64,000 nt of DNA from positions 62,001 through 126,000 of the forward strand of contig NZ_AFEJ02000003.1 of NCBI RefSeq assembly GCF_000238775.2. Reading direction: 5' to 3'. This DNA comes from Acaryochloris sp. CCMEE 5410 (lineage in GTDB: Bacteria > Cyanobacteriota > Cyanobacteriia > Thermosynechococcales > Thermosynechococcaceae). Of the stretch, positions 2,784-43,431 are shown piece by piece (positions within the stretch are counted from its first letter, which is position 1; the number at the start of each line of letters is the position of its first letter). Below the pieces are notes generated by a model, which did no database searches, was not told where the DNA came from, and saw only the letters and a program-made list of their open reading frames with translations. Both the position numbers and the translations under genes were made by a program.

Positions 2784-4137
2784 GCAGCAGCTATTTCGTC
2801 AGACCCGCTGGCGGCTAGCAAGCTGGTATGCCGGGGTTATGGGTATTATCCTGGCGCTGAGCGGCTTTGGGGTCTATGAAGCCATTGACCATGCCCACCG
2901 GACGGCAGCAGATCGAGAATTGCTAGCGATCGCAGGCCGACTTCACAACAACTTAGAGCCAATCCTACAGCAACCTGGAGAAATTCCAACCAGCGCTCAG
3001 CGTTTCCTACCTGATCCCTGTAATAGCCCCAGTCAATGCACGAAAACCGCTAGAGCTGCCGATCATAACCCTGGGGCAATGTTCCAGGGCAACTACTACA
3101 TTCGACTACTAGATCCCTCACAAGATCTTGTTGCTCTTGCTGGACTTAAACCATCTGGCCTCATATCCGCTTCGTCTGTGTCTGAGTGGCAGTTCCTCAA
3201 GGACAAAGACAAGACTCGCTATCGCCAAGTTACGTTGCCCTTGCAAAACCCCAATGAACAACTATGGGGATATCTGCAGGTTGGTAGTTCTCTCAAAGAC
3301 TCAGATCGGTATGTTTCCTTAGTCAAACTGACTTTATTTACTGGCTTACCTTTGGCTCTGGGCTTTGTTGGAATCGCTAGTTGGTGGCTTGCTGGACGAG
3401 CCATGCGACCGATTCATCAGTCATATCAGCAGATGCAGCAGTTCACGGCAGACGCAGCCCACGAGTTACGCACTCCGATTGCTGCAGCCCAAGCCACGGT
3501 GGAATCGGTTCTAGATACACCTTGTCTATCGGAAGCTGATGCCCGCGAAACGCTCCAAACGCTAGATCGCCAACATCAGCGCTTGTCCCGACTGATTCAG
3601 GACTTGCTGTTGCTGACTCGATTAGACCGTCAAGTACATCTGATACAAAATGAAGCTTGCTGCCTGCAAGATTTAGTCAACGACATTGCTGAAGAGTTAG
3701 CAGCTCTGGCCTTAAGCAAAAAGATCCAGCTTCTAACTGACGTTCAAGTGGATCAGCCATTGCGGATCAGTGGAGACGAAGCACAACTCTATCGGCTCGT
3801 GTTTAATCTAGTTACCAATGCGATTCAGTACACCCCTGCGGGTGGAAAGATCACCCTCGTATTAGATCAGCAGGAGCAGCAGGCGGTGATTCGGGTGCAG
3901 GATACAGGGATTGGGATTGCCCCTGAATACCAATCAAAAATCTTTGACCGCTTTTATCGCGTGAATAGCGATCGCAACCGACAAACGGGCGGTTCAGGGT
4001 TGGGGCTGGCGATTGTTCAGGCGATCGCCCAAACACATGGCGGCAAAATCTCGGTGCAAAGTCAACTTGATCAGGGTAGTACTTTTATTCTTTCTCTGCC
4101 TACTAGTTCCGTTAGGCAAGCTACATCAACTCTCTAG
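2776..4137 (+). CDS. Membrane sensor histidine kinase, CopS/RppB-like
   Basis: A 453-residue kinase with two transmembrane helices (about 15-36 and 186-206) and a periplasmic sensor of about 150 residues holding C82 and C88 (DPCNSPSQCTK). The phosphorylated His is H229 in FTADAAHELRTP, followed by the N box (NLVTNAIQYTP), DTGIGI and GSGLGLAIV ATP-lid motifs. The linker from TM2 to the His box is only about 20 residues, so the HAMP domain is at most partial, as in RppB/NrsS-type cyanobacterial kinases. It is the obvious partner of the overlapping regulator. Metal sensing is inferred from its neighbours. Confidence 0.9.
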   Translation: MNEQQLFRQTRWRLASWYAGVMGIILALSGFGVYEAIDHAHRTAADRELLAIAGRLHNNLEPILQQPGEIPTSAQRFLPDPCNSPSQCTKTARAADHNPGAMFQGNYYIRLLDPSQDLVALAGLKPSGLISASSVSEWQFLKDKDKTRYRQVTLPLQNPNEQLWGYLQVGSSLKDSDRYVSLVKLTLFTGLPLALGFVGIASWWLAGRAMRPIHQSYQQMQQFTADAAHELRTPIAAAQATVESVLDTPCLSEADARETLQTLDRQHQRLSRLIQDLLLLTRLDRQVHLIQNEACCLQDLVNDIAEELAALALSKKIQLLTDVQVDQPLRISGDEAQLYRLVFNLVTNAIQYTPAGGKITLVLDQQEQQAVIRVQDTGIGIAPEYQSKIFDRFYRVNSDRNRQTGGSGLGLAIVQAIAQTHGGKISVQSQLDQGSTFILSLPTSSVRQATSTL

Positions 4138-7582: not shown

Positions 7583-8754
7583 GTGAGGATGCAACATCGT
7601 TATTGGGCCACTGCGCTTTCTGGAACGTTGGTCTCGATGACGCTAGGGAGTGGTCTTCTACCAGCACAGGCTGAGGAGACGCAAACGGGGACTAAAACAC
7701 AGCCAATGCATCAGGAGGTTGAAATCTCAGCAAATCCTGACCTGCCTATAGCCGATCTGTTGGAAGTCCCTAGTGAAGCAGAACTTTCTGCAGAGGAAGG
7801 CGATCAACTGGCACCCCTTACATCGAAGCCTAGCGCTACCGCAGACGCCCTAAAACCGACAATTGCAGAAACCTCCAATTCAGGAGCGTTGCTGCCCACT
7901 CACGCCCAAGAATTTGAGAGGACAGAGGAAAGCAAAATACAGCCGCCCACACTTTTCCTTGAGACCAGCAGGCAGGCCCCCCAGCCCTCTTTTACAAACG
8001 GCCCTCTGGCACAGACTCTGACGCAGAAACCACCTGAAACTCCGCAGTCCTCATCTGAGACTCCACAGACAACTGATAAGGAAGACTGGCCATCGCCCGT
8101 TAAAGACAATCAAACCTTCTCCTTTGTCTTAATCGATCAGTTGGAGGTTCGCACCGTTGATGGCCCAACGACGCTGAACTGGGATGCGATTGGCTGGGTG
8201 GGGGCGACATCAGACGCTTCTGGTTCAAAACAGAAGGTGATGTGGGCCTCTCGGCGGACACTGGCGGTGAGGCAGAGGTACAGGCTCTATACGGTCAACT
8301 GGTTGCACCTTTTTGGGACTTTCAGGCGGGCCTAAGGTATGACCGCTTGTATGGTCCTGGCCCAGACCGAGGGCGGGCCTTTGCAGTGGTCGGCATCCAG
8401 GGATTAGCGCCCTACCTACTTGAGGTGGATGCTTCCCTATTCATTAGCGAGGATGGCGATGTTTCAGCCAGACTCACGGGAGAATATGAGATGTTGCTGA
8501 CCCAGCGCTTGATCTTACAGCCCAAGGCTGAGATCAATCTTGCCGCCCAGAGGGTTGAAAACTTTGGTGTTGGCTCAGGTCTTAATGATATTGAGCTGGG
8601 GCTGCGACTCCGCTATGAGATTAGCCGTAAGTTTGCTCCTTACGTTGGCATCAACTGGCAGCGCAAGTTCTTTGAAACCGCTGACTTGGCTAGAGAAGAA
8701 GGAGAAAGCGTCGGGGACTTCTCGGCCCTAGCGGGCGTAAGGCTTTTATTCTAG
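7583..8754 (+). pseudogene. copB: copB, outer-membrane copper resistance protein, one-base frameshift
   Basis: Two reading frames together make a full CopB. The first starts at GTG 7583 (GAGG upstream) with a signal peptide (LLPAQA-EE), a Pro/Thr-rich segment and the CopB start FSFVLIDQLEVR ... LNWDAIGWVG. The second continues GDIRRFWFKTEGDVGLSADT and runs through the beta-barrel (GLRYDRLYGPGPDRGRAF) to the aromatic C-terminus VRLLF at 8754. The frames meet at a run of five G at 8200-8204; one extra G would restore one gene of about 390 residues. Either copB is broken or a base was lost in sequencing. It follows the copA and Met-rich genes in the standard copper operon order. Confidence 0.85.
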
Positions 8755-8778
8755 AGTTGAGTACGATTGGAGATTGGA

Positions 8779-8795
8779 TATCATTCTGAGATAGG
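8779..8795 (+). promoter_or_regulatory. Degenerate copper-type operator (site E)
   Basis: TATCAT-TCTGA matches the left half and gap of the operator, but the right half is GATAGG instead of TYTCAT. TATTCT at 8801-8806 could be a -10 for the gene at 8864. It is probably a decayed or weak site. Confidence 0.3.
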
Positions 8796-8863
8796 AACTT
8801 TATTCTGCGATCCTAAATTTACGTTAGCTAATTTGAACACTAATACGTCACGAGGGAATATCG

Positions 8864-9205
8864 ATGACTCTTCACCGTTTCACAAAGGCAGAGCCAAATA
8901 CTGCAGCTTTTCTTTTGGCTCACAGTGGCGAAAGTCACGTTCGCTCAAGTAAAAGCCAGAAAACTGAAACTTCAACATCTCATGGATCGGAGACTGTGCC
9001 AAAGTCTCAGCATACTGAGCCTGCCGAGATTGCCAAGCCGTCGCCTATCCCTGTAGAACCTTCTACAGCGTCAGTGGTAAGTGATCAGACAACGCTTGCA
9101 AGTTCCATAATGGGCTTTCCCTTCGGTTTGGGTGAACTCTCCTTAGGTTTGATTCTAGTTGGCCCAGTCTGCTTGTCTGCTGTAAGACGGTGGCTGCAGT
9201 CATGA
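8864..9205 (+). CDS. Unknown single-span membrane protein in the copper cluster
   Basis: A 113-residue protein with a hydrophilic Ser/Thr/His/Lys-rich N-terminal part (residues 20-80, containing HSGESHVRSSKSQ) and one C-terminal hydrophobic helix (about 84-105, FPFGLGELSLGLILVGPVC). GAGGGA is well placed before ATG 8864. I recognise no family. Its last codons overlap the start of a PepSY-type gene (ATGA), so the two are coupled and probably act together in the membrane. Confidence 0.5.
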   Translation: MTLHRFTKAEPNTAAFLLAHSGESHVRSSKSQKTETSTSHGSETVPKSQHTEPAEIAKPSPIPVEPSTASVVSDQTTLASSIMGFPFGLGELSLGLILVGPVCLSAVRRWLQS

Positions 9206-16022: not shown

Positions 16023-17312
16023 TCAACAACTCGCCACCGGCAGTTCCGCCCAACACGTCGTATACCTCGGTGACTGCCACTTCGACTGCATCCGCCAGAT
16101 CTGCCGAACCCCCGACGCCGCAATCTCCAGCGTCCCTCGCCCGAATCGTTCGTTGACCTTATCCATGATTGACATCAGCCGCTTGCGTTTCTCCCAATCC
16201 TCATCCTTCTCCCAGAGGTGCCCTTGTATGGTCGTCTCTGAGGCTAAACCCACCATCAAGACACCCGCCTTCTGAAATTCTCGCCCCGGTTCATAGATAC
16301 GCTCCATCGCTTTCCGGGCAGCCTCCACAATTGCTGGGGTGTAGTTGGTGGCTATGGAGAACGTGACCGTCACCGATTGACGAAAATACCCCGGCTTAAA
16401 GGGGCTTGTCCGCGCGAAGACAACCATTGCCTCTGCCACCTGCCCTTGTTCCCGTAACTTTTCCGCCGCCCTGGAAGCGTAGGCTGCGATCGCTTCCTGC
16501 AAATCCGCCAACTTCGTCACAGGTTGGCCGAAGGATCGGGACACGCAGGTTTCCTTTTTCGGTTTAGCAACCAGCTTCAGGGGTAAACAGGAGATACCCC
16601 GCAGCTCGTGGATCATCCTCACTCCCACCACCCCCATTTTTTTGCGGATCAGCCCCTCGTTAGCATCCCGGAGTTCCTTCGCTGTCTCAATTCCCTGAGC
16701 GTTCAGCCACTTGTTGTATTGGCGGCCAATCCCCCAGATGTCTGCGACTGGAAATGTGGCTAGGATGCTCTCTGCTTCAGGGGAGTCATCTAGATTGAAA
16801 ACGCTATTATATCTTGATGTTTCCTTTGCCACCTGCAAAGACACCTTGGCTAGAGTCTTCGTAGTTGCCACCCCCAATGAAACGGGTATACCTGTCCACT
16901 GGCTTACAGTATCCTTGATGTGATGGGCGTATTCCGTAACGTTTTGATGGCTGAAGGGAGTTAGGTCTAGCCAAGCTTCATCAATGCTGTAGACCTCGAT
17001 ATCTGGCGCAAACATTGCCAGCGAATCCATCACTCTCGATGACATGTCTCCATAAAGGACATAATTGGCGCTGAATGTTACGATCCCATATTTCGCTATC
17101 TTGTCCCTAATTTTAAATATTGGCACTCCCATCTGGATGCCCAGTTCCTTCGCTGCCTTGTTTCTCGATACAACACATCCGTCGTTATTACTCAGTGAAA
17201 GACAAGGCAATCCCCTAAACTGAGGCTGAAAATTGACTTCAACTGAATTATAGAAAGAGTCACAATCAACTATGCCGTATATCTTTGAGGGACTAGAAGG
17301 AATGGATGACAT
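16023..17312 (-). CDS. umuC: UmuC-type Y-family DNA polymerase V subunit
   Basis: A roughly 429-residue translesion polymerase from ATG 17312; an in-frame TTG at 17336 is the alternative start. Catalytic motifs are VDCDSFYNSVE (D16, D18) and YSIDEAWLD (D111, E112), followed by the helix-hairpin-helix region (ADIWGIGRQYNKWL), the little finger and the UmuC C-terminal end (SPRYTTCWAELPV). It overlaps the umuD stop by 20 bases, so the pair is translationally coupled. It makes error-prone DNA polymerase activity after DNA damage. I found no clear LexA box upstream of the operon. Confidence 0.92.
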   Translation of the reverse strand: MSSIPSSPSKIYGIVDCDSFYNSVEVNFQPQFRGLPCLSLSNNDGCVVSRNKAAKELGIQMGVPIFKIRDKIAKYGIVTFSANYVLYGDMSSRVMDSLAMFAPDIEVYSIDEAWLDLTPFSHQNVTEYAHHIKDTVSQWTGIPVSLGVATTKTLAKVSLQVAKETSRYNSVFNLDDSPEAESILATFPVADIWGIGRQYNKWLNAQGIETAKELRDANEGLIRKKMGVVGVRMIHELRGISCLPLKLVAKPKKETCVSRSFGQPVTKLADLQEAIAAYASRAAEKLREQGQVAEAMVVFARTSPFKPGYFRQSVTVTFSIATNYTPAIVEAARKAMERIYEPGREFQKAGVLMVGLASETTIQGHLWEKDEDWEKRKRLMSIMDKVNERFGRGTLEIAASGVRQIWRMQSKWQSPRYTTCWAELPVASC

Positions 17313-17718
17313 GGGCAACAACCCCCCAAACCTCAAAGTCCCGACCCTCTGAAATTTCTATGGGCGCAGTGCAAGCACTCGCAGCTAGCAAGTAGACCTT
17401 ATTCCCTCTGTAGGACAAGCGCTTGACCGTAAAACCACCGTCGAGGATAGCAACCACGATTGCCCCATCAGTGGGATTAATTGAGCGGTCAACGATCAAC
17501 AGATCTCCTGATCGGATGCCTGCCTCAGTCATTGAGTGACCCTCAACCCTCATATAAAAAGTAGCTGTAGGATGGCTGACGAGATATTGTTTGAGGTCTA
17601 ATGAGTTTTCCTGGAAATCTTCTGCGGGAGAGGGAAAGCTAGCCCAAACAAGGGTTGGAAAGATAGGCAGGCAGACAGAATCTGCCCAAGCGACAGGATA
17701 AACTGATCGAACAAGCAT
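17293..17718 (-). CDS. umuD: UmuD-type self-cleaving S24 peptidase
   Basis: A 141-residue UmuD. The catalytic Ser is S62 in EGHSMTEAGI and the Lys is K99 in FTVKRL. The likely cleavage region is VWASFPSPAEDF (about residues 24-35), where an Ala-Ser bond replaces the usual Ala/Cys-Gly. RecA-stimulated autocleavage would yield UmuD' for polymerase V. It precedes and overlaps umuC in the standard order. It lies beside the partition genes, a common plasmid arrangement. Confidence 0.88.
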   Translation of the reverse strand: MLVRSVYPVAWADSVCLPIFPTLVWASFPSPAEDFQENSLDLKQYLVSHPTATFYMRVEGHSMTEAGIRSGDLLIVDRSINPTDGAIVVAILDGGFTVKRLSYRGNKVYLLAASACTAPIEISEGRDFEVWGVVAHVIHSF

Positions 17719-17829: not shown

Positions 17830-18381
17830 TCAAATCTCTTCCAGTCTTTTCCTGACTGTCTTTGCAGCCTTTTCTTGTCCAGCAACTAGCCTCTTTATCC
17901 GTTCCTCCTTGGCTTCTATTAAAATTTGGTTAATCAATGATTCTGGTAAGACCTCCCAATTCCTTATAAACGAGTCAACTATGACCTCATAAGGAATTCC
18001 CGTTGACATCTTCAAGGTTCTCAGCTTCGCAACAGACTCTTCTGAAAGCCTCATTGCAACTTTCTTGTATTCTATTTCTGACAAACCTGAATCTACTTTA
18101 TTATTTTCTTGTTTACCAGAATCTTGTTTTCTAGAAGCTAGTCTACTTGAATCTAGAATTGTTTTTTCTTGTGCAATTAAAGGTGACTCTTCGCCTAACG
18201 AGAAAGTGCTTTCAGGTTTCTTAGAATCTGTAAAACTTGAATCAGTTTTTGTAGAATCAGGTTTCTTGTTTACCAGAATCTTGTTTTCCTTTACATTATT
18301 ACTATCTTTGCCTGCGGTAACAAGTGTTTTAGACGGAATGCTTATAGGGCCAGTTGGCAGTTTTTTCTTAGGCTTACTCAC
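17830..18381 (-). CDS. ParB-like partition partner with internal DNA repeats
   Basis: A 183-residue protein overlapping the parA stop by 8 bases, so it is the second gene of the partition operon. The N-terminal two thirds are low-complexity (Lys, Ser, Asp; units like KPDSTKTDSSFTDSKKPEST). The C-terminal part (about 108-183) looks like a ribbon-helix-helix type fold (YKKVAMRLSEESVAKLRTLK, then YEVIVDSFI) with a basic helical tail. By position it is the centromere-binding factor. The low-complexity part contains two copies of a 27-bp repeat read in two different frames, so its protein sequence may be a by-product of DNA sites. Confidence 0.7.
   Translation of the reverse strand: MSKPKKKLPTGPISIPSKTLVTAGKDSNNVKENKILVNKKPDSTKTDSSFTDSKKPESTFSLGEESPLIAQEKTILDSSRLASRKQDSGKQENNKVDSGLSEIEYKKVAMRLSEESVAKLRTLKMSTGIPYEVIVDSFIRNWEVLPESLINQILIEAKEERIKRLVAGQEKAAKTVRKRLEEI
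18105..18131 (-). repeat. 27-bp centromere-like repeat, copy inside the parB-like gene
   Basis: On the minus strand this begins GAAAACAAGATTCTGG and ends TAAACAAGAAA. It is identical over 27 bp to 18262-18288. Here it is read as (R)KQDSGKQE, one base out of register with the other copy. Confidence 0.75.
18262..18288 (-). repeat. 27-bp centromere-like repeat, second copy inside the parB-like gene
   Basis: Identical in DNA to 18105-18131 but read as ENKILVNKK. Conservation of DNA across two reading frames argues for a cis-acting site, most simply a ParB binding site. Confidence 0.75.
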
Positions 18382-19186
18382 TCAGAATCACCTCGATAAT
18401 CTCTTTATATGGCTTGGCTAATTTTGTCTGGCCTGCTTCATCTAATGACCAGCCCATATTATTGGTCTGCTGAACAAAGGTGCTTTGTCTCAATGGTTGA
18501 AAAATATTTGTGCCATTAACTGAGGTGTTAAGAGCCTCCAGTGCAGCTTTAGTCATTCGAGTTTTATTTGACCCAGCCCACTGTTCCCTAGTTGGTAAAA
18601 TTCCAATAATATCTGGCACATCAAACTCAAGGTCTTCCAATTCTCGGACGAGAACGATTGTATTAATGGCTCCAGATACACCTTTATGTGTACATTCTGT
18701 GGGAATCACCAATAATTCTGACGCAAGGATAGCGTTGTAAGTTAGCATCCCCTTTGCAGGTGGGCTATCAATAACTACATAGTCATACTTATCCAAAATT
18801 TGTTTAAGGGATCTACGAAGTACTCTTTCCCTGCCAGGATTCATTGCAATCGCGTCTGATGCTCTAGCCAAGCTGTAGTCACTTGGAGCTAAATACAGAT
18901 TGTCGCCACGATCTTCATTTAGTGGCTTTTGGATTATGTCAGTAATACTGATGCGGTCATCATCATTAAGTATCGTCTCAGCGATGGTTGCTATCTCAGA
19001 TAAATCTGACCAACCCATCCACTGACTGAGGTTACCTTGTGGATCAAAATCGACGGCTAAGGTTTTCCCATGATCAGACAGCATGGTTGCCAGATTTAGA
19101 GCTGTTGTCGTTTTACCGGAGCCACCGCTAAGACAACTAACAGAAATCACTTTAGCTTTTCTAGGTTTCTTGTTAGAGCTTTTCAT
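18374..19186 (-). CDS. parA: ParA-type partition ATPase (first module)
   Basis: A 270-residue ATPase with Walker A CLSGGSGKTTT (residues 18-28), Walker A' FDPQGNLSQWMGW and Walker B YDYVVIDSPP. The signature lysine that normally opens the deviant Walker A (K-G-G-x-G-K) is Ser20 here. It should drive segregation of the plasmid over the nucleoid with the overlapping ParB-like protein. The 5' region carries repeats that also occur inside the partner gene. It is related in motif and layout to the second ParA at 42500. Confidence 0.88.
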   Translation of the reverse strand: MKSSNKKPRKAKVISVSCLSGGSGKTTTALNLATMLSDHGKTLAVDFDPQGNLSQWMGWSDLSEIATIAETILNDDDRISITDIIQKPLNEDRGDNLYLAPSDYSLARASDAIAMNPGRERVLRRSLKQILDKYDYVVIDSPPAKGMLTYNAILASELLVIPTECTHKGVSGAINTIVLVRELEDLEFDVPDIIGILPTREQWAGSNKTRMTKAALEALNTSVNGTNIFQPLRQSTFVQQTNNMGWSLDEAGQTKLAKPYKEIIEVILSE

Positions 19187-19207
19187 GTTTCATGAATAAA
19201 AGAATCT

Positions 19208-19258
19208 GGAAAACAAGATTTTAGTAAACAAGAAGAATGTAACGTACTTTCTTGTTTA
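19208..19258. repeat. Centromere-like repeats upstream of the first parA
   Basis: 19208-19234 on the plus strand matches the 27-bp repeats inside the parB-like gene with only a few differences (AAAACAAGATTTTAGTAAAC). TAAACAAGAA at 19225-19234 and TTCTTGTTTA at 19249-19258 form an inverted pair. This is the likely parS and autoregulation site, 22-72 bases ahead of the parA start. Confidence 0.65.
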
Positions 19259-19546: not shown

Positions 19547-20287
19547 TGAGTATGAACTTGAAGATCACTATATTAGATCGATGGTTTTAATTCCAGATTT
19601 ATATATAAAATCTGTATTACATTAAAAATTACATTTCGCGACACGATGTCGCTAGAACGAGTGGATTTGTCGCTCACACCATAACTTGGCTCTTGTCCTC
19701 TTTTGGTGATGCGGATAATGAAGTAGAGGATAGAGGGGTAAACCATTACCAGGTATGGCTATGGAACTCCTCCAACACTTCCTTCCGTGCCAAGATACCC
19801 TCCACTTGGATAGCTGGGAACTTGACTCCACAAACCATCAGATGACTTTGAATGTGTCCTCAACTCAAGTGTTTGCCTGTTGTCCTGTCTGTAATCAAAT
19901 CACTCACCGCGTTCACAGTCGCTATGAGCGAACCCTGAGAGACCTTCCCTGTGTGGATTTCTGCCTGACTATTCTGCTTCAAGTTTGCAAGTTCTTTTGC
20001 CGCAACGAGGCTTGCAAACGACGCATCTTCACTGAGCGATTACCCCAGGTAGCGGTCCCTTGGGCCAGGCGAACGATTCGCTTTGCAGAACACCTTAGCT
20101 CGATTGGCCTTGCCCTTGGGGGTGCGGCAGCAGCCCGTTTGAGCTATCAAATCAATTACGGAAGTAGTCGCAATACAATGTTGCGCTCCATTGCCCAGCT
20201 TGAGATTCCCCCAACTCCAACCCCCAAGGTTTTAGGGGTGGATGATGTTGCGCTGCGGAAGGGACATATCTACGGCACAATTTTGGT

Positions 20288-21662
20288 GTTAGTGTCCTGA
20301 TTTATTCGCCATGGGCTGAGATAGCTGAAATGCTTTGATAATAGAGAATTCAGAGCACTCCTTTATGAACATTGCCCAACGCGAGCAGCAGATTATCCGC
20401 ATCCAATCTCAAAGTTCCTATGCTTCTATTAACGAAGCCCTAGAATCAACCCTTCGTCTTGAAGCTAACCGAGTCACCCAGATCGCAGTAGAGTCAGCTC
20501 TAGACGAAGAAGTTCAAGCTTATCTATCAGAGATTCAAGGGGATCGACCTCGACGTTCAGGCTACTATCAACGGATCCTTGATACCCAGTACGGCAGGAT
20601 TACTCAGCTGTCCGTTCCCAAACTACGGAAAGGGAATGCAGGCCGAGAGTGGCAGATTTTAGAGCGTTACCAACGAGCCCTTGGCAGCCTGCTAGAGTTT
20701 TGCCTAGGGCTGTATGTCATGGGCTTATCGCTTCGAGATCTGCAAGAAGCTCTCTATGAGATCCTGGGTGCAGTCTTATCCGTGAATGCCATTAACCGGA
20801 TTACACTTAAAGCCCAGAAGCAGATGCTCCAAAGTCGTCAGACTCGTCTTGAGAAAACCCCTTTTATTTTGATTGTTGATGGGGTTTGGGCGAGTGTTCA
20901 ATGTGCGTCTGAAGACTTTTGGGAAGACCAAGCTGGGCATATTCGGAAACTACGCCGTGCGGAAGACAGAGTCATCTTAGTGGCCATGGCGATATGGCCA
21001 AATGGGACACAAACTGTTCTCCATTATGAAATTGCTGTCCAAGAATCTGAGGCAGCTTGGCTACTGTTCTTTGAGCACCTGCGGCAACGAGGATTGCAAA
21101 CCCATTTGGTGAAGCTGATTGTGAGTGATGGCACCACTGGGCTACCTAAGGTAATTCGCGCTCTGTTTCCCCTCGCGCAACATCAACGGTGCATTACCCA
21201 TAAGGTTCGAGCGATGCTCCGGCATTTGGGCTATGAGCAATTGCCACACCTGGATGCTCAAGGACAAGAACTGTCCCACTCTGAAGCCAAGAAGCTGCGG
21301 TATTCACAAATTAAACACGATGCCTATGCTATCTATAAAGCGCCAGACTGGGAAGAAGCTATTGTTGCGTTGCTCGTGTTTGCACAGAAATGGACAGACC
21401 TTGAACCCGATGCGGTCAGAACCTTTACCAAAGATTTTGCCCTGACCTTGAGTTTCTATGATTTTGATGAATCCATTCATTCGCTGATTCGTACTTCCAA
21501 TGCGCTAGAACGGTTGTTCCGAGAATTCCGAACCAAAGCTGATGAGATTGGTGCTTTCCCCAATGAGGAGAGCTGTTTAGCGATTTTCTTCCTCGTCTCA
21601 CGCAGAGATCATGCCAAGCATGATCGTCTCAATAACCATGGCGAATAAATCGGGACACTAAC
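20288..21662 (+). mobile_element. IS256-family (Mutator) insertion sequence
   Basis: A 1375-bp element with 27-bp inverted repeats (GTTAGTGTCCYGATTTATTC, then GCCATGG) differing at one position, flanked by 8-bp direct repeats ATTTTGGT at 20280-20287 and 21663-21670. It is inserted in the ISL3 transposase gene. Intact ends and a clean duplication show a recent insertion. Confidence 0.9.
20365..21648 (+). CDS. IS256-family (Mutator-type) transposase
   Basis: About 427 residues from ATG 20365. The catalytic triad is visible: D in LIVDGVWASVQ, D in LIVSDGTTGLPKVIRALFP and E in NALERLFREFRTKADEIGAF. QHQRCITHKVRAM is the family's C-x(2)-H region. The length is usual for the family. It is intact and therefore probably active, and able to move the element out of the ISL3 gene. 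Confidence 0.92.
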   Translation: MNIAQREQQIIRIQSQSSYASINEALESTLRLEANRVTQIAVESALDEEVQAYLSEIQGDRPRRSGYYQRILDTQYGRITQLSVPKLRKGNAGREWQILERYQRALGSLLEFCLGLYVMGLSLRDLQEALYEILGAVLSVNAINRITLKAQKQMLQSRQTRLEKTPFILIVDGVWASVQCASEDFWEDQAGHIRKLRRAEDRVILVAMAIWPNGTQTVLHYEIAVQESEAAWLLFFEHLRQRGLQTHLVKLIVSDGTTGLPKVIRALFPLAQHQRCITHKVRAMLRHLGYEQLPHLDAQGQELSHSEAKKLRYSQIKHDAYAIYKAPDWEEAIVALLVFAQKWTDLEPDAVRTFTKDFALTLSFYDFDESIHSLIRTSNALERLFREFRTKADEIGAFPNEESCLAIFFLVSRRDHAKHDRLNNHGE

Positions 21663-22894
21663 ATTTTGGTGGACCTAGAACAGCATCGGATCGTTGAACT
21701 CCTGCCTGATCGCGAAGCTCAGACGCTAGTCGATTGGTTGGAGGAACACCCTGGTGTCGAGATCTTTTCGCGTGATCGCTCCAAGACATACAAGTCAGCG
21801 ATGAGTGAAGGTGCTCCCAATGCTATCCAGGTCGCAGATCGCTTTCACCTGCTGGATAATCTACAAGAGGTGTTAGAGAACGTATTTCACTCTCATTGCC
21901 CTGTTCTCAAAAGTGTGGATGAAACGCTGCTGAAGCAACGTTTCCCCGAACCTCTAGCACCGAAGAGCGTTAGTAAAACTAAGAGTGCTCGTGAGGAGCA
22001 AAAGGCTCAAAGTCGTGCTCGTCGATTGGAACAGTATGAGCAAATCCACGCCTTGAAAAAACAGGGATTTCTCATTATAGATATTGCTCATCAACTCAAC
22101 ATCAACAGGCATACGGTCTCTAAGTATTTGGCTGCTCCTGTTTTCCCGGAACGTCAGACTCGTACTCAACTAGCAGAGACAGTTATCGATCCCTATAAAG
22201 CCTATCTTTACCAAGAATGGATGGCAGGGCGTCACAATGCCCAACAACTGTTTGAAGAGATTCAACAGCAAGGCTTCAAAGGCTGCTATGGAACAGTTGT
22301 TTATTACCTTCGGAAACTCCATCCCTTTAGCCCGCGTAACCCATCGAAACCAAAAGCTCGCCCCCCAAGGGAGCCATCCAATCGTGTATCGGAGAAAGGG
22401 TCTAAGGATAAGATAACGGAGCCAAAACCTTTGACACCCAGGAATGCGTCATGGTTGGTGATGCGCCACCTTGATCAACTGACCGAAGAAGAGGAAGACA
22501 CTCTGGTACTACTCAGTGGACAGCCTGAGCTATCCGATGCCATTACGCTGACACAGAGTTTTTTGTTCTTAGTCCGAAAGCGGTTACCCCAGCACTTAGA
22601 CAACTGGTTGGAACTTGCAAAGAACAGCTCATTCAAGCCATTTCAGACTTTTGCGAAAGGGTTAAGTGATGACTATGAGGCAGTCAAAGCAGGGTTGACA
22701 TTAGAAGTTAGCAATGGGCCAGTGGAGGGATTTAACAACAAACTGAAAATGATTAAGCGCCAAATGTACGGGAGGGCAGGCCTCGACCTTTTGAATAAAC
22801 GCCTGGTGCTTGCAAGCTGAAATAATTACTAGTTATGGTTTTGAGTCCATTTACTACAGCATCACCAAAAGAGGACAAGACCCAGGTTATGGTG

Positions 22895-23200: not shown

Positions 23201-26200
23201 ATGTCGCAGCAAGACGACCTTGCCGAATTATTCGCGGCTGAGTTTCTGGCGGGCAAATCCTACAGCACTATCGTAGAAGCCCGGAACCAGGCATCTCAGT
23301 TGCTCAATCAACCCGTGCGCCCTGGCAGTCCCCTAGCAAAGCTGGTGGATGAGTCCGTTGAAGCTGGGTTAGTTCGTGCTGCGAGGGAAATCATCGGACA
23401 ATCTGAAGATCCTCTTAAGACCTACACCGACCTTGTTGACCTCACCAATCGCCAGCCCAGGCTCGGGGTCCGATCCTCCACCAGCGTCAAACAGCAAGCC
23501 TATTCCACTCCTCTCCCTATTGCATATTTGGCGGCCAACCTCGCAGGAATTACGGCTGAGTCCACCGTTTACGAACCGAGTGCTGGACATGGGGCATTGG
23601 TCCTGAATGCCACCCCGGAAAACTGCACGATCAACGAGCTAAACCCAGACCGGGCCAAGGATCTAAGACGCCAAGGATTCACGGTTACTGAGCAGGATGC
23701 TTCGGCCTATCTCCCAGACCAGCTCCATGATGTGGTGATTGCCAACCCTCCCTTTGGCCGAGTCAAGGGGGACAACGGCAGGGCCAAGCGGTTCCAACTC
23801 CCCGGCAATCCAAGGGGAACGAGCCAGATCGATCATGCGATCGCACTGCAAGCCCTCCGAGCGATGAAACCTGATGGCCGTGCCGTCCTGATTCTTGGTG
23901 GCAAACCCGAAACCGATCCAAGGGAACGAGCCGAAGCCTACAACACCTTGGAGTCTCGGGGGTTCTTCTATCCCTTATATCAACAGTACGGAGTGACCCA
24001 GCATTTCACGATTTCTGGAGACTTGTATAAGAAGCAAGGGGCAGGTTGGCCGCTGGATATGATCGTAATTGAAGGGAAGGTATATTCTCAACGACCCCTA
24101 CCCGGAGTAGAGCCACCGAAAATCTATGAATCCTTTGATGAATTGCGAGGACTACTGAATGCAAATCCCCAGCTATACAACTTATCAGACCTACAACAAG
24201 GTTTGGATACCCAAGGAAGAGGGGAATCAACGCCTATTCATCGTCAGAGTCCCCTCCGAGATGCAGCAGATGGAACATCAGGAGTATCTCGACCTGATGA
24301 ATTGCCGCATGGAGTGGATGATCCAAGACTGGCTGAAACATTACCAGGAGTCGAGGGAGGAAGTACAGGCTCTCCTGTCCAAAACCCTTCGACACATGCA
24401 CCCCACCCAGGAAATCCCGAGTCTCTACGACGACGAGGGAGAGATGAAACAGATGTGGATTTGGGCCACGGACTGGGGAGACAGTCTGCTGGAGTGCAAC
24501 GAGAAATGGATGCAGTGGCTGAGACTGATCAATCCAGAGGTGACATTCCCCATAGATCTAACCCTGAAGAGTCCACTACCCCAAGCCCAACTGATGGACA
24601 AGCACGACAGCATCAACCTAGAGGAGTTCCTGATCGACCTGAGATCGGACTTCGACTAAATTCCCTTGAACTAAACCATCATTCTGAGGACAACCTGATG
24701 GCTGAGCAGTTTAATACCGCTTATATCCCTCGCAGCAAAGGGAGATCGCCTGGAACCTTAATCCCAACCAATATGGCTGTTTCGGCTCAACGTGCTTTGG
24801 ATAAGTTAGAAGCCAAACATGGCAATGTGGACGAGTTTGTGATGAATCGACTGGGGTATGACTCCAGAGGCCATCTCTATGAACGCCTATACGCCGAGCA
24901 GATCGATTCGTTAGCCTTGTCGTTTGACCAAAAGGATCAAGGCAAAATCTTCCTCAACGGCGATCAAACTGGGAATGGCAAGGGACGGTTCGGAGCAGCC
25001 AGCATTATTGATGCCAAGAGGCGAGGCCACATCCCTATATTTGTCACCAAAGATCCTCAACTCTACAAATCAATGTTGGAAGACTTAGCTGATATTGGTT
25101 TTACTGATATCAACCCCTTTATTACCAACAATGAAGAGAAAATCACCCTCAACAATGGCCGCATCCTAAATACGGGAAATGCAGCTAGCCAAGCCTCAGA
25201 GATGAACCGGATTACTGATCAACAGGATCTAGGGGGGTACGATGTGATTTTCACGACCTATGCCCAACTGCAAACGGTAAATAAGAAAAGCACTTTGAGA
25301 CGGGAGTTCCTATCCAATATTGCCCCGTCATCGTCATTGATTTTCGATGAGGCTCATGAAGCAGGGGGTAGCGTCGGGGATGCAGGCTGGGTCAACAGAA
25401 ATGCCCCAGCCAATCGAGCTGATTTTGTCAGGCAATTAGTAGATCGCTCTGCTGAGACAGTTTTTATGAGCGCCACAGCCACAAAAGACCCGGCTGTAAT
25501 GGATTTGTACGCTCGACGTACTGACGCTAAGCATACTGTCTCCAGCATGGAGAATTTAGAAAATACCCTGAAAGCTGGCGGCATTCCACTACAACAAATG
25601 ATGGCGACTCAGTTCGTTGCCTCTGGCAATATGCTCAGACGGGAACGGAGCTTTGAGAATATTTCATTTGATGCCAAGCAAGTTCCTGTCGATCATGGGA
25701 TTGCTGATGGGATTTCTGGCATCATGAGAGCCATTGATAGGTTTGACAAAGCCAAGGTAGAAGCCATCAAAGAACTTAGCAAAGAAGTTCGCAAGGAAGC
25801 CAAAAAAGTCAGTGAAGACAATTCTATTGGCAAATCTGGAGCAAAATCAAAAAGCTTTTCTTCGCTCATGCACAACTCGATTGAGCAAGGACTCCTCTCT
25901 CAAAAAGCTGAGGCTACAGTCCAAGAAGCGATCTCTGCCTTGGAACGGGGAGAGAAACCCCTAATTGCCGTCGCCAATACAATGGATTCGTTTATTGGCA
26001 ACTTTGCGAAGGATCGGGGGATTGAAGCAGGTGATCCGATCAACATTTCCTTTGGTGATGTGCTAGAGCGATATCTGAATCGCTCTCGGGATGTGACTAT
26101 TACGGACTATTCAGGCACATCTATGCGACGACCCATGACGGAGGGTGAGCTAGGAGGATTAGCACTGGCTGCGTTTGAAGAGGCCAAAGAACTCATTGCC

Positions 26201-29200
26201 GAAACAGATTTATCGAATATCCCACTCAGCAGTATCGACTACATCAAGCATCGACTGGCCCAAGAAGGGTATAGTGCTGACGAAATTACAGGCAGACAAA
26301 GCATCATCAACTATGGAGCCGATGGCAATCTCACCTATGGGCTAAGACCTATGAGCGAGATCAAGACTCAAGGCAAAATTAATGTGGTCAATCGCTTTAA
26401 CGGCGGGCAGCTTGATGTCGTGATTCTAAATCGTTCTGGAGCGACGGGTATCAACCTTCATGCGTCAGAGAAGTTTGCAGATCAGCGACCCAGGCATATG
26501 ATCATGGCCCAAGCTGAGCGCGATATCAACCAAGTATTCCAAATGTTGGGCCGTGCGAATCGCTTTGGGCAAGTCGTGGAACCTAAATTTACGCTGGTGA
26601 TGGCAGATGTCCCCGCAGAAAAACGACTCGGGGCTTTACTCGCCAAAAAGATGGCTTCGTTAAATGCCAACACCACAGCAGCGAGAGATTCGGATCTCAG
26701 CGTTGGCAATGTTACCGATTTCATGAATGCAGCGGGGGAAGAAGTTGTAGCTGAATTATTGGACGAACACCCCGAAATCGATGCCATGCTGTCTTACCCC
26801 AGTCATGGGTCTGTGGGAGGATCTGATTTTCCACTCATTAGCCGCACAACAGGCCGCATCCCTCTACTCCCCATCCAGCAACAAGCAGAACTGTACGACC
26901 TGATCGAGACGGAAACCACAGCTTTGATCAAGCAAAAAGAGGCAATGGGCGAGAATGTCTTAGAGGCTGACAAGCTGGACCTGGATGCCCGCACAATCGC
27001 CAAGATGGAAGTTGTACCGGAAGATGCTGCCATCAAGAGTGAGTTCACCGGACCTGTGATGCTGGAGGTGGTCAATGCCAAGGTGACGACTAAGCCTCCC
27101 ACGCAGTTAGAAATTGTCAACACAGTCCGTGAGAACTTGGGCCAGCCTAGGGTTAAGACGGTTGATGACCATGATTTTAATGCTGTTGAAGACCAGGCCA
27201 AGGTGCAGAACCGGAGCTTGATAGATCAGGTTGAGAGCCGACTCGAAACCTATGCCCGGAAAGCGATAGCAGATGCGAAAACACCGGAGGCGGCAGGCCA
27301 CTTGGAGACCAAATTCGATAAACAGATGGGGCATTTCCAAGCCCTCACGAATCGTTTTCGGATTGGCAGCACCGTTCAACTAGATTCCGCAGAGGGTAAG
27401 GTTTCCTATGGGGTGGTTGCGAACCTTGCACAAAAGGCTAAGCCGTTAGGTAGTCCCGCTGCACCGACGAACTGGAAGATGCAGATCGTCACTACTGAAG
27501 GCAAAAATATCTCAGTACCTTTTTCCAAGATCAACTCAGGTAAGCCATCTGCTGTCACGATCAGGCCAAAAGGAACCACTTGGAAAGGGGAGAGCATTTA
27601 TGAGGACTTTGATACCAGGCAGCAAAATCAGCGCACTGAGATGCAGATCTTCACGGGCAACCTGATCAAGGCGTATGGGGAGCATCCCAAGGGCAAGTTC
27701 ATTAACTTCACCACCAATCAAGGCCAGGTGCGCCAGGGGCTGATCATGCCCGATGACTTCGATATCACAAAGCAGCTCCGAGAGCGCCCAGTGATCTTTG
27801 AGGAGCCATACCAAGTAAAAGCATTCCTAACAGAAGTGACGAAGAATCTGGGGGTGGTTCATGACAACCCGGAGAAGAACTTAGCCATCAAGGCTGATGC
27901 AGCCGCCAAACTGCAAGGGACTCCCATCGAGCATTTTGTGATCACAGTGCCCAGCTCCACCCGTGTTGGCGGCACGTTCTTCTTGAATGAAGATTTGCTA
28001 GATGCTGCCCAAAGTGAATTCTTCTCTGTGGCCCACCGAATGGAGATGCATGTGGCTCCAGAAAACTTAGAGGCAGCACTCAAGGTAATCATGAAGGACG
28101 AAGGCATCCAAATCGCAGCCTTCGATTTCAAAGATATGGCACGGGATTACTTAGGACAGATGCTGCCGACGATGGAGCAGATCGAAGAGAACCAGTTTGA
28201 GCAACGGGCTGACTTTGTACCCTACGTGGAGCCGACCAAAGACACCGCAGCTCAGCTAGATTTGTTGCTCCAGTCTGAGGCTGTTGAGCCGAGTGAAACC
28301 CCGCAAATTGAGCAGCCTCAGTCTGCACCGGACCAGGCCGCAGCACAGCCTACCGAGGAGAACACCAAGCAAATTGCCCCACCCGCAAACCAGATAGGCA
28401 AGGCTGAAAAGTCTGTGGCCCAGTTCTTACATGAGGGGGGATTATCCCAGGAAATTCTGAAGGGTGATGATTTCCACTTCAAGATCAAGAATGGCCCTTA
28501 TGAGCCTTTGGTGGTGGAGCGGATTACGGATCAACTTTATCTGACCCACTACTATGAGCAAAATGGAGACTTATGCCTGGATTCTGAAATGGTGTTTGGG
28601 ATTGATGAGCAGGGCAAACTCAACCTAGAAGAAGTGGCTGTTCAGAACCCGCTTACCGGAGGAGAGATACGAGAACTGGATCGGGAGTTTGGAGCGACAT
28701 TCGCCCAGAACATTGTCAATCAAGGATTTGCAGAAGCAGCCCTTGAGCAGTTACCAGAGCTATTACAGGAGCGACAGGCAGAACAGAATCAGGCTGAATC
28801 TGTGATTGCCGAAGAGCCAGCAGCGGTACAATCTGAAGCACCCACCCAAGCTGAGCCGACACCAACCAAGGCGACTGAGGAGATTGCAACAGAAGTTGAG
28901 CCACCATCAGCAACGGAATCACCACCAGAGCAGACGGCCCCACCAATTCAAGGAACTGAACCCACGGCTACAGAAAAACCGGAAGTCACCCCACCGGAGA
29001 CGCCTAGCCAGCCCAAAGCAGAAGTGGAACAGCCTCAGCAAGGTGCAATGGCTCAACAGGACCAAGGACCGCAGCCGAAGCCAAAACCCCAGGCTAAACC
29101 GGAGGACTGGCCTAAGTATGCCTCAGCCCTTGGTCGAGGCCATGTGATTCAGGCAAGGATCAAGAAAGTGGTAGCAGCACACCAGCAAGGAACCGCTCTT

Positions 29201-29701
29201 GATATGAGGTCTAGTATCTCGATGGGCAAGGACTTTAGGGAGTTTACCCAGGAATTGAATTCGATCCGGGATTGGTATCGAGCGGCCAAGGAACTCAATC
29301 GCGGAGATGCCTACCTTGAACGAATTATGAAAGTAGGCAATAGCTACAAGCAGGGTAAGCCAATCTCTTACAGAGCGCGTACTATACGAAGCCAAGATAT
29401 CAATCAAGCAAACTACAATCAGTTTTCCGCAAAGCTAAACAGGGACAACCCAAAAGCATTTCTGGTGAGACTTGCGGCAAATGCAGCTAAGGCTGGGCTA
29501 ACTAACCGACGCATCATGGGAGCTTTATCAATGGACCCAGATATCCAGTCCATGCATTATCAAAAAGGAGAGCAAGCCAGTCTGAAGTACTCACGGTCAA
29601 TTATGTTGGATGGACTAAAGCTAAAGAAGAGAGAACAACCCAAAGTTATTGCTCCACAACAATCACAGGAAATTAATCGTAATCAGGGACTTGGAAGATG
29701 A
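23201..29701 (+). CDS. DarB-like methylase and strawberry-notch helicase, 2166 codons
   Basis: The N-terminal part is an adenine methyltransferase: SAM motif YEPSAGHGALV at 124-134 and catalytic NPPF at 182-185. The central part is an SNF2/strawberry-notch helicase: GDQTGNGKGR (587-596), DEAH (716-719), SATATKDP (757-764), SGATGINLHAS and QVFQMLGRANRFGQ (1111-1124). The C-terminal third has two Glu/Pro/Gln-rich linkers (about 1690-1740 and 1847-1970) and an unknown basic end. Such fusions resemble phage P1 DarB, which protects incoming DNA from restriction. Residues 320-486 are Pro/Gly/Arg-rich and overlap a better-looking ORF in another frame; M500 has its own ribosome site, so the frame may be two proteins. 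Confidence 0.8.
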   Translation: MSQQDDLAELFAAEFLAGKSYSTIVEARNQASQLLNQPVRPGSPLAKLVDESVEAGLVRAAREIIGQSEDPLKTYTDLVDLTNRQPRLGVRSSTSVKQQAYSTPLPIAYLAANLAGITAESTVYEPSAGHGALVLNATPENCTINELNPDRAKDLRRQGFTVTEQDASAYLPDQLHDVVIANPPFGRVKGDNGRAKRFQLPGNPRGTSQIDHAIALQALRAMKPDGRAVLILGGKPETDPRERAEAYNTLESRGFFYPLYQQYGVTQHFTISGDLYKKQGAGWPLDMIVIEGKVYSQRPLPGVEPPKIYESFDELRGLLNANPQLYNLSDLQQGLDTQGRGESTPIHRQSPLRDAADGTSGVSRPDELPHGVDDPRLAETLPGVEGGSTGSPVQNPSTHAPHPGNPESLRRRGRDETDVDLGHGLGRQSAGVQREMDAVAETDQSRGDIPHRSNPEESTTPSPTDGQARQHQPRGVPDRPEIGLRLNSLELNHHSEDNLMAEQFNTAYIPRSKGRSPGTLIPTNMAVSAQRALDKLEAKHGNVDEFVMNRLGYDSRGHLYERLYAEQIDSLALSFDQKDQGKIFLNGDQTGNGKGRFGAASIIDAKRRGHIPIFVTKDPQLYKSMLEDLADIGFTDINPFITNNEEKITLNNGRILNTGNAASQASEMNRITDQQDLGGYDVIFTTYAQLQTVNKKSTLRREFLSNIAPSSSLIFDEAHEAGGSVGDAGWVNRNAPANRADFVRQLVDRSAETVFMSATATKDPAVMDLYARRTDAKHTVSSMENLENTLKAGGIPLQQMMATQFVASGNMLRRERSFENISFDAKQVPVDHGIADGISGIMRAIDRFDKAKVEAIKELSKEVRKEAKKVSEDNSIGKSGAKSKSFSSLMHNSIEQGLLSQKAEATVQEAISALERGEKPLIAVANTMDSFIGNFAKDRGIEAGDPINISFGDVLERYLNRSRDVTITDYSGTSMRRPMTEGELGGLALAAFEEAKELIAETDLSNIPLSSIDYIKHRLAQEGYSADEITGRQSIINYGADGNLTYGLRPMSEIKTQGKINVVNRFNGGQLDVVILNRSGATGINLHASEKFADQRPRHMIMAQAERDINQVFQMLGRANRFGQVVEPKFTLVMADVPAEKRLGALLAKKMASLNANTTAARDSDLSVGNVTDFMNAAGEEVVAELLDEHPEIDAMLSYPSHGSVGGSDFPLISRTTGRIPLLPIQQQAELYDLIETETTALIKQKEAMGENVLEADKLDLDARTIAKMEVVPEDAAIKSEFTGPVMLEVVNAKVTTKPPTQLEIVNTVRENLGQPRVKTVDDHDFNAVEDQAKVQNRSLIDQVESRLETYARKAIADAKTPEAAGHLETKFDKQMGHFQALTNRFRIGSTVQLDSAEGKVSYGVVANLAQKAKPLGSPAAPTNWKMQIVTTEGKNISVPFSKINSGKPSAVTIRPKGTTWKGESIYEDFDTRQQNQRTEMQIFTGNLIKAYGEHPKGKFINFTTNQGQVRQGLIMPDDFDITKQLRERPVIFEEPYQVKAFLTEVTKNLGVVHDNPEKNLAIKADAAAKLQGTPIEHFVITVPSSTRVGGTFFLNEDLLDAAQSEFFSVAHRMEMHVAPENLEAALKVIMKDEGIQIAAFDFKDMARDYLGQMLPTMEQIEENQFEQRADFVPYVEPTKDTAAQLDLLLQSEAVEPSETPQIEQPQSAPDQAAAQPTEENTKQIAPPANQIGKAEKSVAQFLHEGGLSQEILKGDDFHFKIKNGPYEPLVVERITDQLYLTHYYEQNGDLCLDSEMVFGIDEQGKLNLEEVAVQNPLTGGEIRELDREFGATFAQNIVNQGFAEAALEQLPELLQERQAEQNQAESVIAEEPAAVQSEAPTQAEPTPTKATEEIATEVEPPSATESPPEQTAPPIQGTEPTATEKPEVTPPETPSQPKAEVEQPQQGAMAQQDQGPQPKPKPQAKPEDWPKYASALGRGHVIQARIKKVVAAHQQGTALDMRSSISMGKDFREFTQELNSIRDWYRAAKELNRGDAYLERIMKVGNSYKQGKPISYRARTIRSQDINQANYNQFSAKLNRDNPKAFLVRLAANAAKAGLTNRRIMGALSMDPDIQSMHYQKGEQASLKYSRSIMLDGLKLKKREQPKVIAPQQSQEINRNQGLGR
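24159..24659 (+). CDS. Overlapping ORF inside the methylase-helicase gene
   Basis: A 166-codon frame, +1 relative to the giant ORF. It has the look of a real acidic, Trp-rich globular protein (MEWMIQDWLKHYQESREEV, MKQMWIWATDWGDSLLE, NEKWMQWLRLI), with coherent codon use (CTG, GAC, GAG, CAG). Over the same bases the giant frame gives a disordered Pro/Gly/Arg/Asp-rich chain. Start candidates are ATG 24159 and the pair of Met codons at about 24258-24267. It stops at TAA 24657-24659, 38 bases before a well-placed ribosome site and in-frame ATG of the helicase. It may be an independent gene between methylase and helicase, or an overprinted one. No family is recognised. Confidence 0.5.
   Translation: MQIPSYTTYQTYNKVWIPKEEGNQRLFIVRVPSEMQQMEHQEYLDLMNCRMEWMIQDWLKHYQESREEVQALLSKTLRHMHPTQEIPSLYDDEGEMKQMWIWATDWGDSLLECNEKWMQWLRLINPEVTFPIDLTLKSPLPQAQLMDKHDSINLEEFLIDLRSDFD
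24686..24700 (+). promoter_or_regulatory. Internal ribosome binding site and start for the helicase part
   Basis: GAGGA at 24686-24690 stands 7 bases before ATG 24698, which is codon 500 of the long frame. From here the protein (MAEQFNTAYIPRSKGR) would be a 1667-residue helicase without the methylase. Confidence 0.5.
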
Positions 29702-42503: not shown

Positions 42504-43363
42504 TCTTCTTCCTCTGTTTTTAAGACTGGAACTGATTTAGCGTACTGTCCGAGCAAGGGTCTTAACCTTTCGATGAGACTTCGTAAAGGGAATTCCAAGG
42601 CCTCATATCCCAGTTCTCCAGGTAGAGTTAGTTCGTCAATAGCCCGTTTATAAATGTCGCTCTCTAGAATATGTGGAAGCATTAATTCCTTTCCTACGAG
42701 TGCTTCCATGACTTCAATGTTGGTCCTCGTTACCCTAGTAGGATTTAAACCTGTCCACTTTGCCCGAAAAGGAATTGTTCCAATAAATTCACCTAATGGA
42801 ACCATTGACTGACATGTTTCAATTAGACCCTTTGTTCTCTTAAGGGATTTAACGCCTTTAATATTTGCCTCGGCACAGATAACCCAGCGATCTCCACTTC
42901 CAAGAGACGTGAGAGTAAGGTGTGAGCGTTCGGGAGGTGGATCAATGATGATGACTCCAAAATTAGCTGTGATTTTGTCTTTGTCCTTAACCGTCTCACC
43001 AGCTTGTTGAATACGATTTCTTAGTACGCTGATGCTTGCTGGTGAGGCTGCTAGGGAGTGGTTCGCATTTTCTAGTTCGTCAGTAGATGGAATGAGAAAA
43101 AGATTCTCGTTATCTGGGACTTCATGAATGGCTTTGAACAATGGAAGTTTCTCAGGTGATCTCGTCAGAACTTCTAGAAGAGTTGGACGATCTTCCGGGT
43201 CAACTCCTAGGAAATCAGTAAGACTAGCTTGAGGATCGGCATCTACAAAAAGAACGGGAATACCATAGCTTGCCAAAATTCTCCCAGTCATAAGTGCCAC
43301 TGTCGTTTTGCCTTGACCTCCTGCCAAAGCAAGTGGGACAAGAGTTGGTGCTTTGTAGGTCAT
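42500..43363 (-). CDS. parA: ParA-type partition ATPase (second module)
   Basis: A 287-residue ATPase with Walker A LALAGGQGKTTVAL (near residue 15), VDADPQASLTDFLG and Walker B FGVIIIDPPPE. As in the first ParA, the signature lysine of the deviant Walker A is missing (Ala in AGGQGK). The region FRAKWTGLNPTRVTRTNIEV parallels TREQWAGSNKTRMTKAALEA of the first ParA, so they belong to one subfamily. Having two such modules suggests fusion of two plasmids. Confidence 0.88.
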   Translation of the reverse strand: MTYKAPTLVPLALAGGQGKTTVALMTGRILASYGIPVLFVDADPQASLTDFLGVDPEDRPTLLEVLTRSPEKLPLFKAIHEVPDNENLFLIPSTDELENANHSLAASPASISVLRNRIQQAGETVKDKDKITANFGVIIIDPPPERSHLTLTSLGSGDRWVICAEANIKGVKSLKRTKGLIETCQSMVPLGEFIGTIPFRAKWTGLNPTRVTRTNIEVMEALVGKELMLPHILESDIYKRAIDELTLPGELGYEALEFPLRSLIERLRPLLGQYAKSVPVLKTEEEE

Positions 43364-43431
43364 CTTTGTGCTTTTGGTGAATAGTACTGTTGCAAGATAG
43401 TTGTTTAGTTCAATAGCAATAGTGAACTAAT

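Follow-up and report, generated by a model that had tools for sequence, protein, structure and literature searches.

Why should two stretches of DNA inside a protein-coding gene be identical letter for letter when they are translated in different reading frames? The question is raised by a parB-like gene in the window, by which we mean the whole stretch of 64,000 nucleotides of Acaryochloris sp. CCMEE 5410 analysed here. A repeat search confirmed what the initial annotation had reported, namely that two 27-bp copies (18105-18131 and 18262-18288) agree at 27/27 positions and that they occupy different frames, the first being read as R-KQDSGKQE-N and the second as ENKILVNKK. The third copy described upstream of parA was likewise recovered at 19208-19234, where it is 93% complementary to 18263-18289, and the inverted half-copy (TTTCTTGTTTA) was found within 19245-19258.

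The par locus lies on contig C3 (416,239 bases) of an 8.09-Mb genome and follows the order of type I ParABS operons, in which a gene for a ParA Walker ATPase precedes that of a small, here putatively DNA-binding, partner (Table 1). This pair is kept in related loci; together with eight loci bearing the same gene pair, from Calothrix PCC 7716, Calothrix PCC 7103, Gloeothece PCC 7822, a Nostocales MAG, Symplocastrum, Pleurocapsa, Crocosphaera and G044, the window forms what we call SF1. The window ParA is 66-67% identical to the ParA of Gloeothece and Calothrix plasmids, G044 has a different, shorter ParA, and the start of the parB-like gene overlaps the parA stop by 8 bp. Directly downstream of parB, at 16023-17718, are UmuC-like (IMS domains with DUF4113) and UmuD-like (Peptidase_S24) genes. 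Just upstream of the locus is a nested insertion, in which an ISL3-family transposase gene is apparently split by a Mutator-family (IS256-like) transposase, and 23201-29701 of the window encodes a 2166-aa protein with Strawberry-notch-type helicase domains and DUF6908.

Table 1. Features of the par locus and its upstream neighbours in the window, with the arrays of a Chloroflexota plasmid (last row, positions in locus L058)
Feature	Position	Strand	Description	Basis
parA	18374..19186	minus	270 aa, Walker-type ParA ATPase	Pfam AAA_31, 2.1e-37
parB-like gene	17830..18381	minus	183 aa, GTG start	ORF; homologs directly 3' of parA in eight further loci
N-terminal peptide codons	18337..18372	minus	conserved peptide PKKKLPTGPISI	kept in nearly all SF1 homologs and chromosomal relatives
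Linker codons	18070..18336	minus	low-complexity, carrying the DNA arrays	alignment; AlphaFold pLDDT <50 over most of residues 20-98
C-terminal domain codons	17833..18066	minus	RHH-like DNA-binding domain (KKVAMRLSEESVAKLRTLKMSTGIPYEVIVDSFIRNW...)	profile match to RHH_1-bearing sister subfamily
Array block 1	18218..18288	.	units 18218, 18233, 18248, then a 7-bp half-step to 18255, 18270	contains 27-bp copy 18262-18288 (ENKILVNKK)
Array block 2	18083..18159	.	five units in 15-bp steps: 18083, 18098, 18113, 18128, 18143	contains 27-bp copy 18105-18131 (KQDSGKQE)
Array at and upstream of parA start	19181..19258	.	non-coding; units 19181 (weak), 19196, 19211, 19226 and half-site 19245-19258	
Split ISL3-family gene, first part	19755-20300		Zn_ribbon_ISL3	
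Mutator-family transposase	20335-21648		IS256-like	
Split ISL3-family gene, second part	21666-22820		DDE_Tnp_ISL3	
L058 8-bp-periodic arrays	2105-2190, 3385-3450, 3645-3725			

The parB-like product is a candidate centromere-binding protein on sequence grounds. Its earlier description as a ParB-like binder holds in that a small partner gene follows parA, while its type is probably RHH and not HTH ParB. The ParBc domain of HTH/CTPase ParB proteins (Spo0J type) had no Pfam or NCBIfam match in the window protein. A member of a sister subfamily, SF2, matches Pfam RHH_1 at 1.8e-6, and the C-termini of SF1 and SF2 match as profiles with a probability of 94.5% and an E-value of 8e-8; the window protein alone yields no significant Pfam RHH match and a weak one to CopG_antitoxin (E 0.07). 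An AlphaFold model built from seven sequences is of low confidence (mean pLDDT 57) with a disordered linker, and in this poor model helices 114-127 and 131-138 fit RHH positions and no strand is modelled. A PDB search with the C-terminal profile returned nothing useful. The conserved N-terminal peptide is proposed, by its inferred role, as the segment that contacts ParA, and between the two ends the DNA that carries the sites encodes a disordered linker of variable sequence.

Both 27-bp copies proved to be the best units of two quasi-palindrome arrays inside the parB-like gene, with the unit AAACnAGAwTCTnGTwT recurring in 15-bp steps and occasional half-steps of 7/8 or 22/23 bp. A 17-bp matrix trained on seven SF1 loci, with the window left out, recovers all three window arrays, and the 15-bp GAATC array that had been suspected is real, with its units in 15-bp steps. 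Within the 64 kb, 13 of the 16 matrix matches of at least 12 bits fall inside the par region (1.47 kb). Moreover, the 22-bp core with up to three mismatches occurs in the whole 8.09-Mb genome only at the two linker copies and the copy upstream of parA, and its reversed-pattern control finds none there. A degenerate 17-bp pattern with 2 mismatches did no better than the reversed control in the 8-Mb genome, and for this reason the genome-wide analysis was confined to sites that were near-exact or scored by the matrix. We propose that the array at the parA start serves as operator and as part of a centromere.

Most units are read in the frame CAA-GAT-TCT (Q-D-S), which yields a polar peptide; a second frame (NKIL) is rarely used, and the third, which reads TAG at CTAG, is without any unit. 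Out-of-frame units are present in three loci (the window, L019 and L021) and are reached by steps of 7, 22 or 23 bp, the out-of-frame copy in the window coming after the half-step (18248 to 18255 to 18270). Since such units follow half-steps, two paired half-sites of 7-8 bp are the simplest account of the real unit.

All SF1 loci have a repetitive parB linker, and in 9/9 the word AAACnAGAwTCTnG or close variants of it occur in two places, the linker and the DNA upstream of parA. In several loci the array extends across the start codon of parA, giving the protein an MPES or MEES beginning (ATGCCAGAATC). Homologs with the linker peptide and without the repeats had been named as evidence against the centromere reading; in the homologs it is instead the DNA word that is kept and the peptide that varies. 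The Calothrix plasmid AP025020.1 also has single consensus palindromes well away from its par locus (29041-29057 and 175201-175217), which are possible extra ParB sites, and single consensus sites occur elsewhere on the Gloeothece plasmid too. Close relatives were sought by single protein in genome contigs, and relatives also in viral contigs and in phages, and none were found; the same-family genomes searched comprised the window's own genome only.

Selection at the DNA level was assessed by a motif-free test, in which 8-mers common to the 220 bp upstream of parA and to other regions were compared with dinucleotide shuffles across 33 parA-parB loci, the 8-mer length and the 220-bp stretch having been chosen once and left untuned. 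The linker shares 589 such 8-mers with the parA upstream DNA against 86 expected (6.8-fold), and the sharing is significant in 26/33 loci, which are phylogenetically non-independent, with some clades sampled repeatedly; five of the 33 (L050-L053 and L055) are without clear linker sharing. No excess is seen in RHH-coding DNA (64 vs. 61 expected, 1.04x) or in parA-coding DNA (214 vs. 188 expected, 1.14x), and there is little in the 300 bp downstream of parB (141 vs. 89 expected, four loci). The choice of codons favours the word: synonymous draws from local codon usage rarely reach the observed sharing (at most 50 per 1000 in 29/33 loci, and 3 per 1000 for the window linker). Codon permutation within the linker, a harsher test, gives 34 per 1000 for the window and is weaker evidence for single loci. 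Serine codons following Asp or Glu in SF1 linkers are TCN in 80 cases vs. AGY in 6, as compared with 24 to 25 after other residues, and most of the preceding codons are CAA, CTA or CCA, a C-n-A pattern shared by three different amino acids. The synonymous-site check recommended in the initial annotation came out in the same direction in SF2 loci, where 88% of synonymous codons are identical in shared linker segments vs. 70-72% elsewhere, the pairs compared being non-independent. These sequence comparisons indicate that the repeats are selected as DNA.

It could be argued that the repeats of the linker arose by neutral tandem expansion of a low-complexity peptide and have no function as DNA, given that most SF1 units share one frame and a 15-bp (5-codon) period of the kind that slippage or duplication would leave. 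We regard this as extremely improbable: the word also stands in non-coding DNA upstream of parA, out-of-frame units exist, and synonymous codons are conserved, with codon choice biased to the word.

As judged from the sequences compared, the arrangement is general across related parA-parB loci, and the DNA word differs between subfamilies. SF2, which includes loci from Nostoc, Calothrix, Anabaena, Crinalium and others and has the N-terminus MSDALERLKxRxRPxVxxRDASL, carries arrays of the GATATCTCGACATCTGGATATC type. Its linkers have a base periodicity of 8 bp (z 12.4) and 16 bp (z 8.3) against synonymous shuffles, and the non-coding DNA upstream of SF2 parA has the same two periods. Adjacent copies of an 8-bp repeat necessarily fall in different frames when the DNA is translated, and a period that is no multiple of 3 speaks further against neutral expansion. 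In 4/6 SF2 plasmids (W03, W05, W07 and W08) every match to a 22-bp SF2 word falls either in the parB linker or upstream of parA; the fifth (W04) gives just two weak matches, at these same two places, and the sixth (W06, Nostoc CENA543, NZ_CP023280.1) has a short parB linker and large extra arrays upstream (8566-8934) and at 2921-2990. No match to the reversed form of this word, used as control, occurred in any of the six. The extra arrays of NZ_CP023280.1 outside the par genes include four copies spaced at 113 bp. A third group (L054, L056 and L057) uses AATTTAGTCATTT, with the peptide TEFSH, and a plasmid of Chlorohelix (Chloroflexota; L058), positive in the 8-mer test with the annotated parA start, has 8-bp arrays in three places: ahead of parA, within the parB linker and across the parB stop codon (Table 1).

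Two further explanations were weighed. The sites might be operators only, through which ParB represses or roadblocks transcription while the true centromere lies elsewhere. The upstream array does sit at the parA start, RHH proteins are often autorepressors, and single consensus sites occur elsewhere on two plasmids (Calothrix and Gloeothece); yet up to 18 intragenic units exceed what an operator needs, and four of the six SF2 plasmids have no other word match able to serve as centromere. In RHH systems, moreover, operator and centromere sites are usually the same, as in pSM19035 (PMC9499535), and we consider a purely regulatory role unlikely. Alternatively, a Rep protein could bind the arrays as replication iterons, the par genes being mere neighbours. 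The repeats are iteron-like, and an origin inside the linker of an initiator gene has precedents in pSK41 Rep (PMC5703833) and lambda O (PMC5043065), but the word tracks the parB subfamily across plasmids, and the annotation of the stretches fetched around the cyanobacterial par loci includes no replication initiator gene, so that we hold a replication function to be highly improbable.

The linker arrangement has its limits among ParA systems. Linker sharing is absent from three other ParA/RHH-like loci in this genome, and their lack of the word is a further point against neutral expansion; one of the genome's other par loci (L066) shares words with the DNA downstream of parB. The same 416-kb contig has two more ParA genes with RHH-like partners, at 42575-43372 of the window (C3:104575-105372) and at C3:385604-386374, the latter ParA gene with one internal stop, which makes three par systems on one replicon; neither additional locus shows linker words. 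Several non-cyanobacterial systems have shared words downstream of parB or none, and those of Lactiplantibacillus, Lactococcus and Enterococcus have them downstream of parB, like classical flanking sites. In chromosomal relatives with Pro-rich linkers (L008-L014 and L025-L031) the word is essentially absent, and the two such linkers tested had no excess of words in common with the parA upstream region, which is short in the fetched loci.

The initial annotation's reading of a centromere distributed inside the gene of its own binding protein is supported by these results. We hypothesize that the window encodes a ParABS system with an RHH ParB and a centromere/operator array of which one part lies in the parA promoter and the other in the codons of the ParB linker, an account that we consider quite probable and above which we would place none of slippage alone, iterons or operators only. 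In such a type I (ParA-type) partition operon, the ParB chain would begin with a basic peptide, continue through a disordered linker and end in an RHH domain. Dimers of this domain would occupy adjacent 7-8-bp half-sites in the upstream array and in both linker blocks; we infer both this binding and the role of the array as centromere. The upstream block would act as operator and as part of the centromere, with ParB bound there presumably repressing parA, and dimers on contiguous units of all three blocks may form a partition complex that presents the N-terminal peptides to ParA. Because flexibility and polarity are all that is required of the linker, the binding sites can dictate its codons. 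The RHH protein omega, the ParB of pSM19035, binds contiguous 7-bp repeats and activates ParA fully only when there are at least four of them (PMC9499535); in the window, the two intragenic blocks have about five units each and the upstream block about four.

More broadly, we lean towards a widespread class of plasmid partition systems in which the centromere array is written into the linker codons of its own RHH ParB, so that specificity and the recognising domain would form one inherited, recombining unit. Each subfamily would write its own word into a different peptide, with protein selection only picking a tolerable frame, and the arrays of the Chloroflexota plasmid suggest that the class reaches beyond cyanobacteria. 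If true, this would be a clear example from nature of the same DNA obeying two codes, as a protein linker and as an array of protein-binding sites, and it would provide a candidate centromere for large cyanobacterial plasmids, the literature searched having yielded no such site for them. It also suggests a reason for the repetitive look and fast evolution of parB linkers, and a way in which plasmids in a shared host could keep distinct partition specificities.

Among known systems, delta/omega of pSM19035 is alike in pairing a ParA ATPase with a small RHH protein and in having a centromere of contiguous short repeats that overlap promoters (PMC9499535). Its heptads are described as overlapping promoter regions, whereas in the loci described here much of the array lies in the parB coding linker, in steps of 15 bp or 8 bp. 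In ParT-parS of SCP2 (Streptomyces), parS is inside the coding sequence of its own binding protein (PMC12260392), but it is one 18-bp inverted repeat recognised by a ParB-like clamp protein, with no array, linker or frame shift between copies. Similarly, parS-359 of Bacillus subtilis is a centromere site within parB/spo0J (PMC4442127), though a single 16-bp site of an HTH/CTPase ParB and one of several on the chromosome. The pSK41 RepA_N initiator and phage lambda O also have the protein's sites inside its own gene (PMC5703833, PMC5043065), and those of pSK41 are in a dispensable linker (PMC5703833); these, however, are replication initiators and origins and do not belong to partition. Gene-internal parS sites and linker-encoded origins are known, and arrays inside RHH parB linkers, of which we found no report in the open-access literature, appear to be new.
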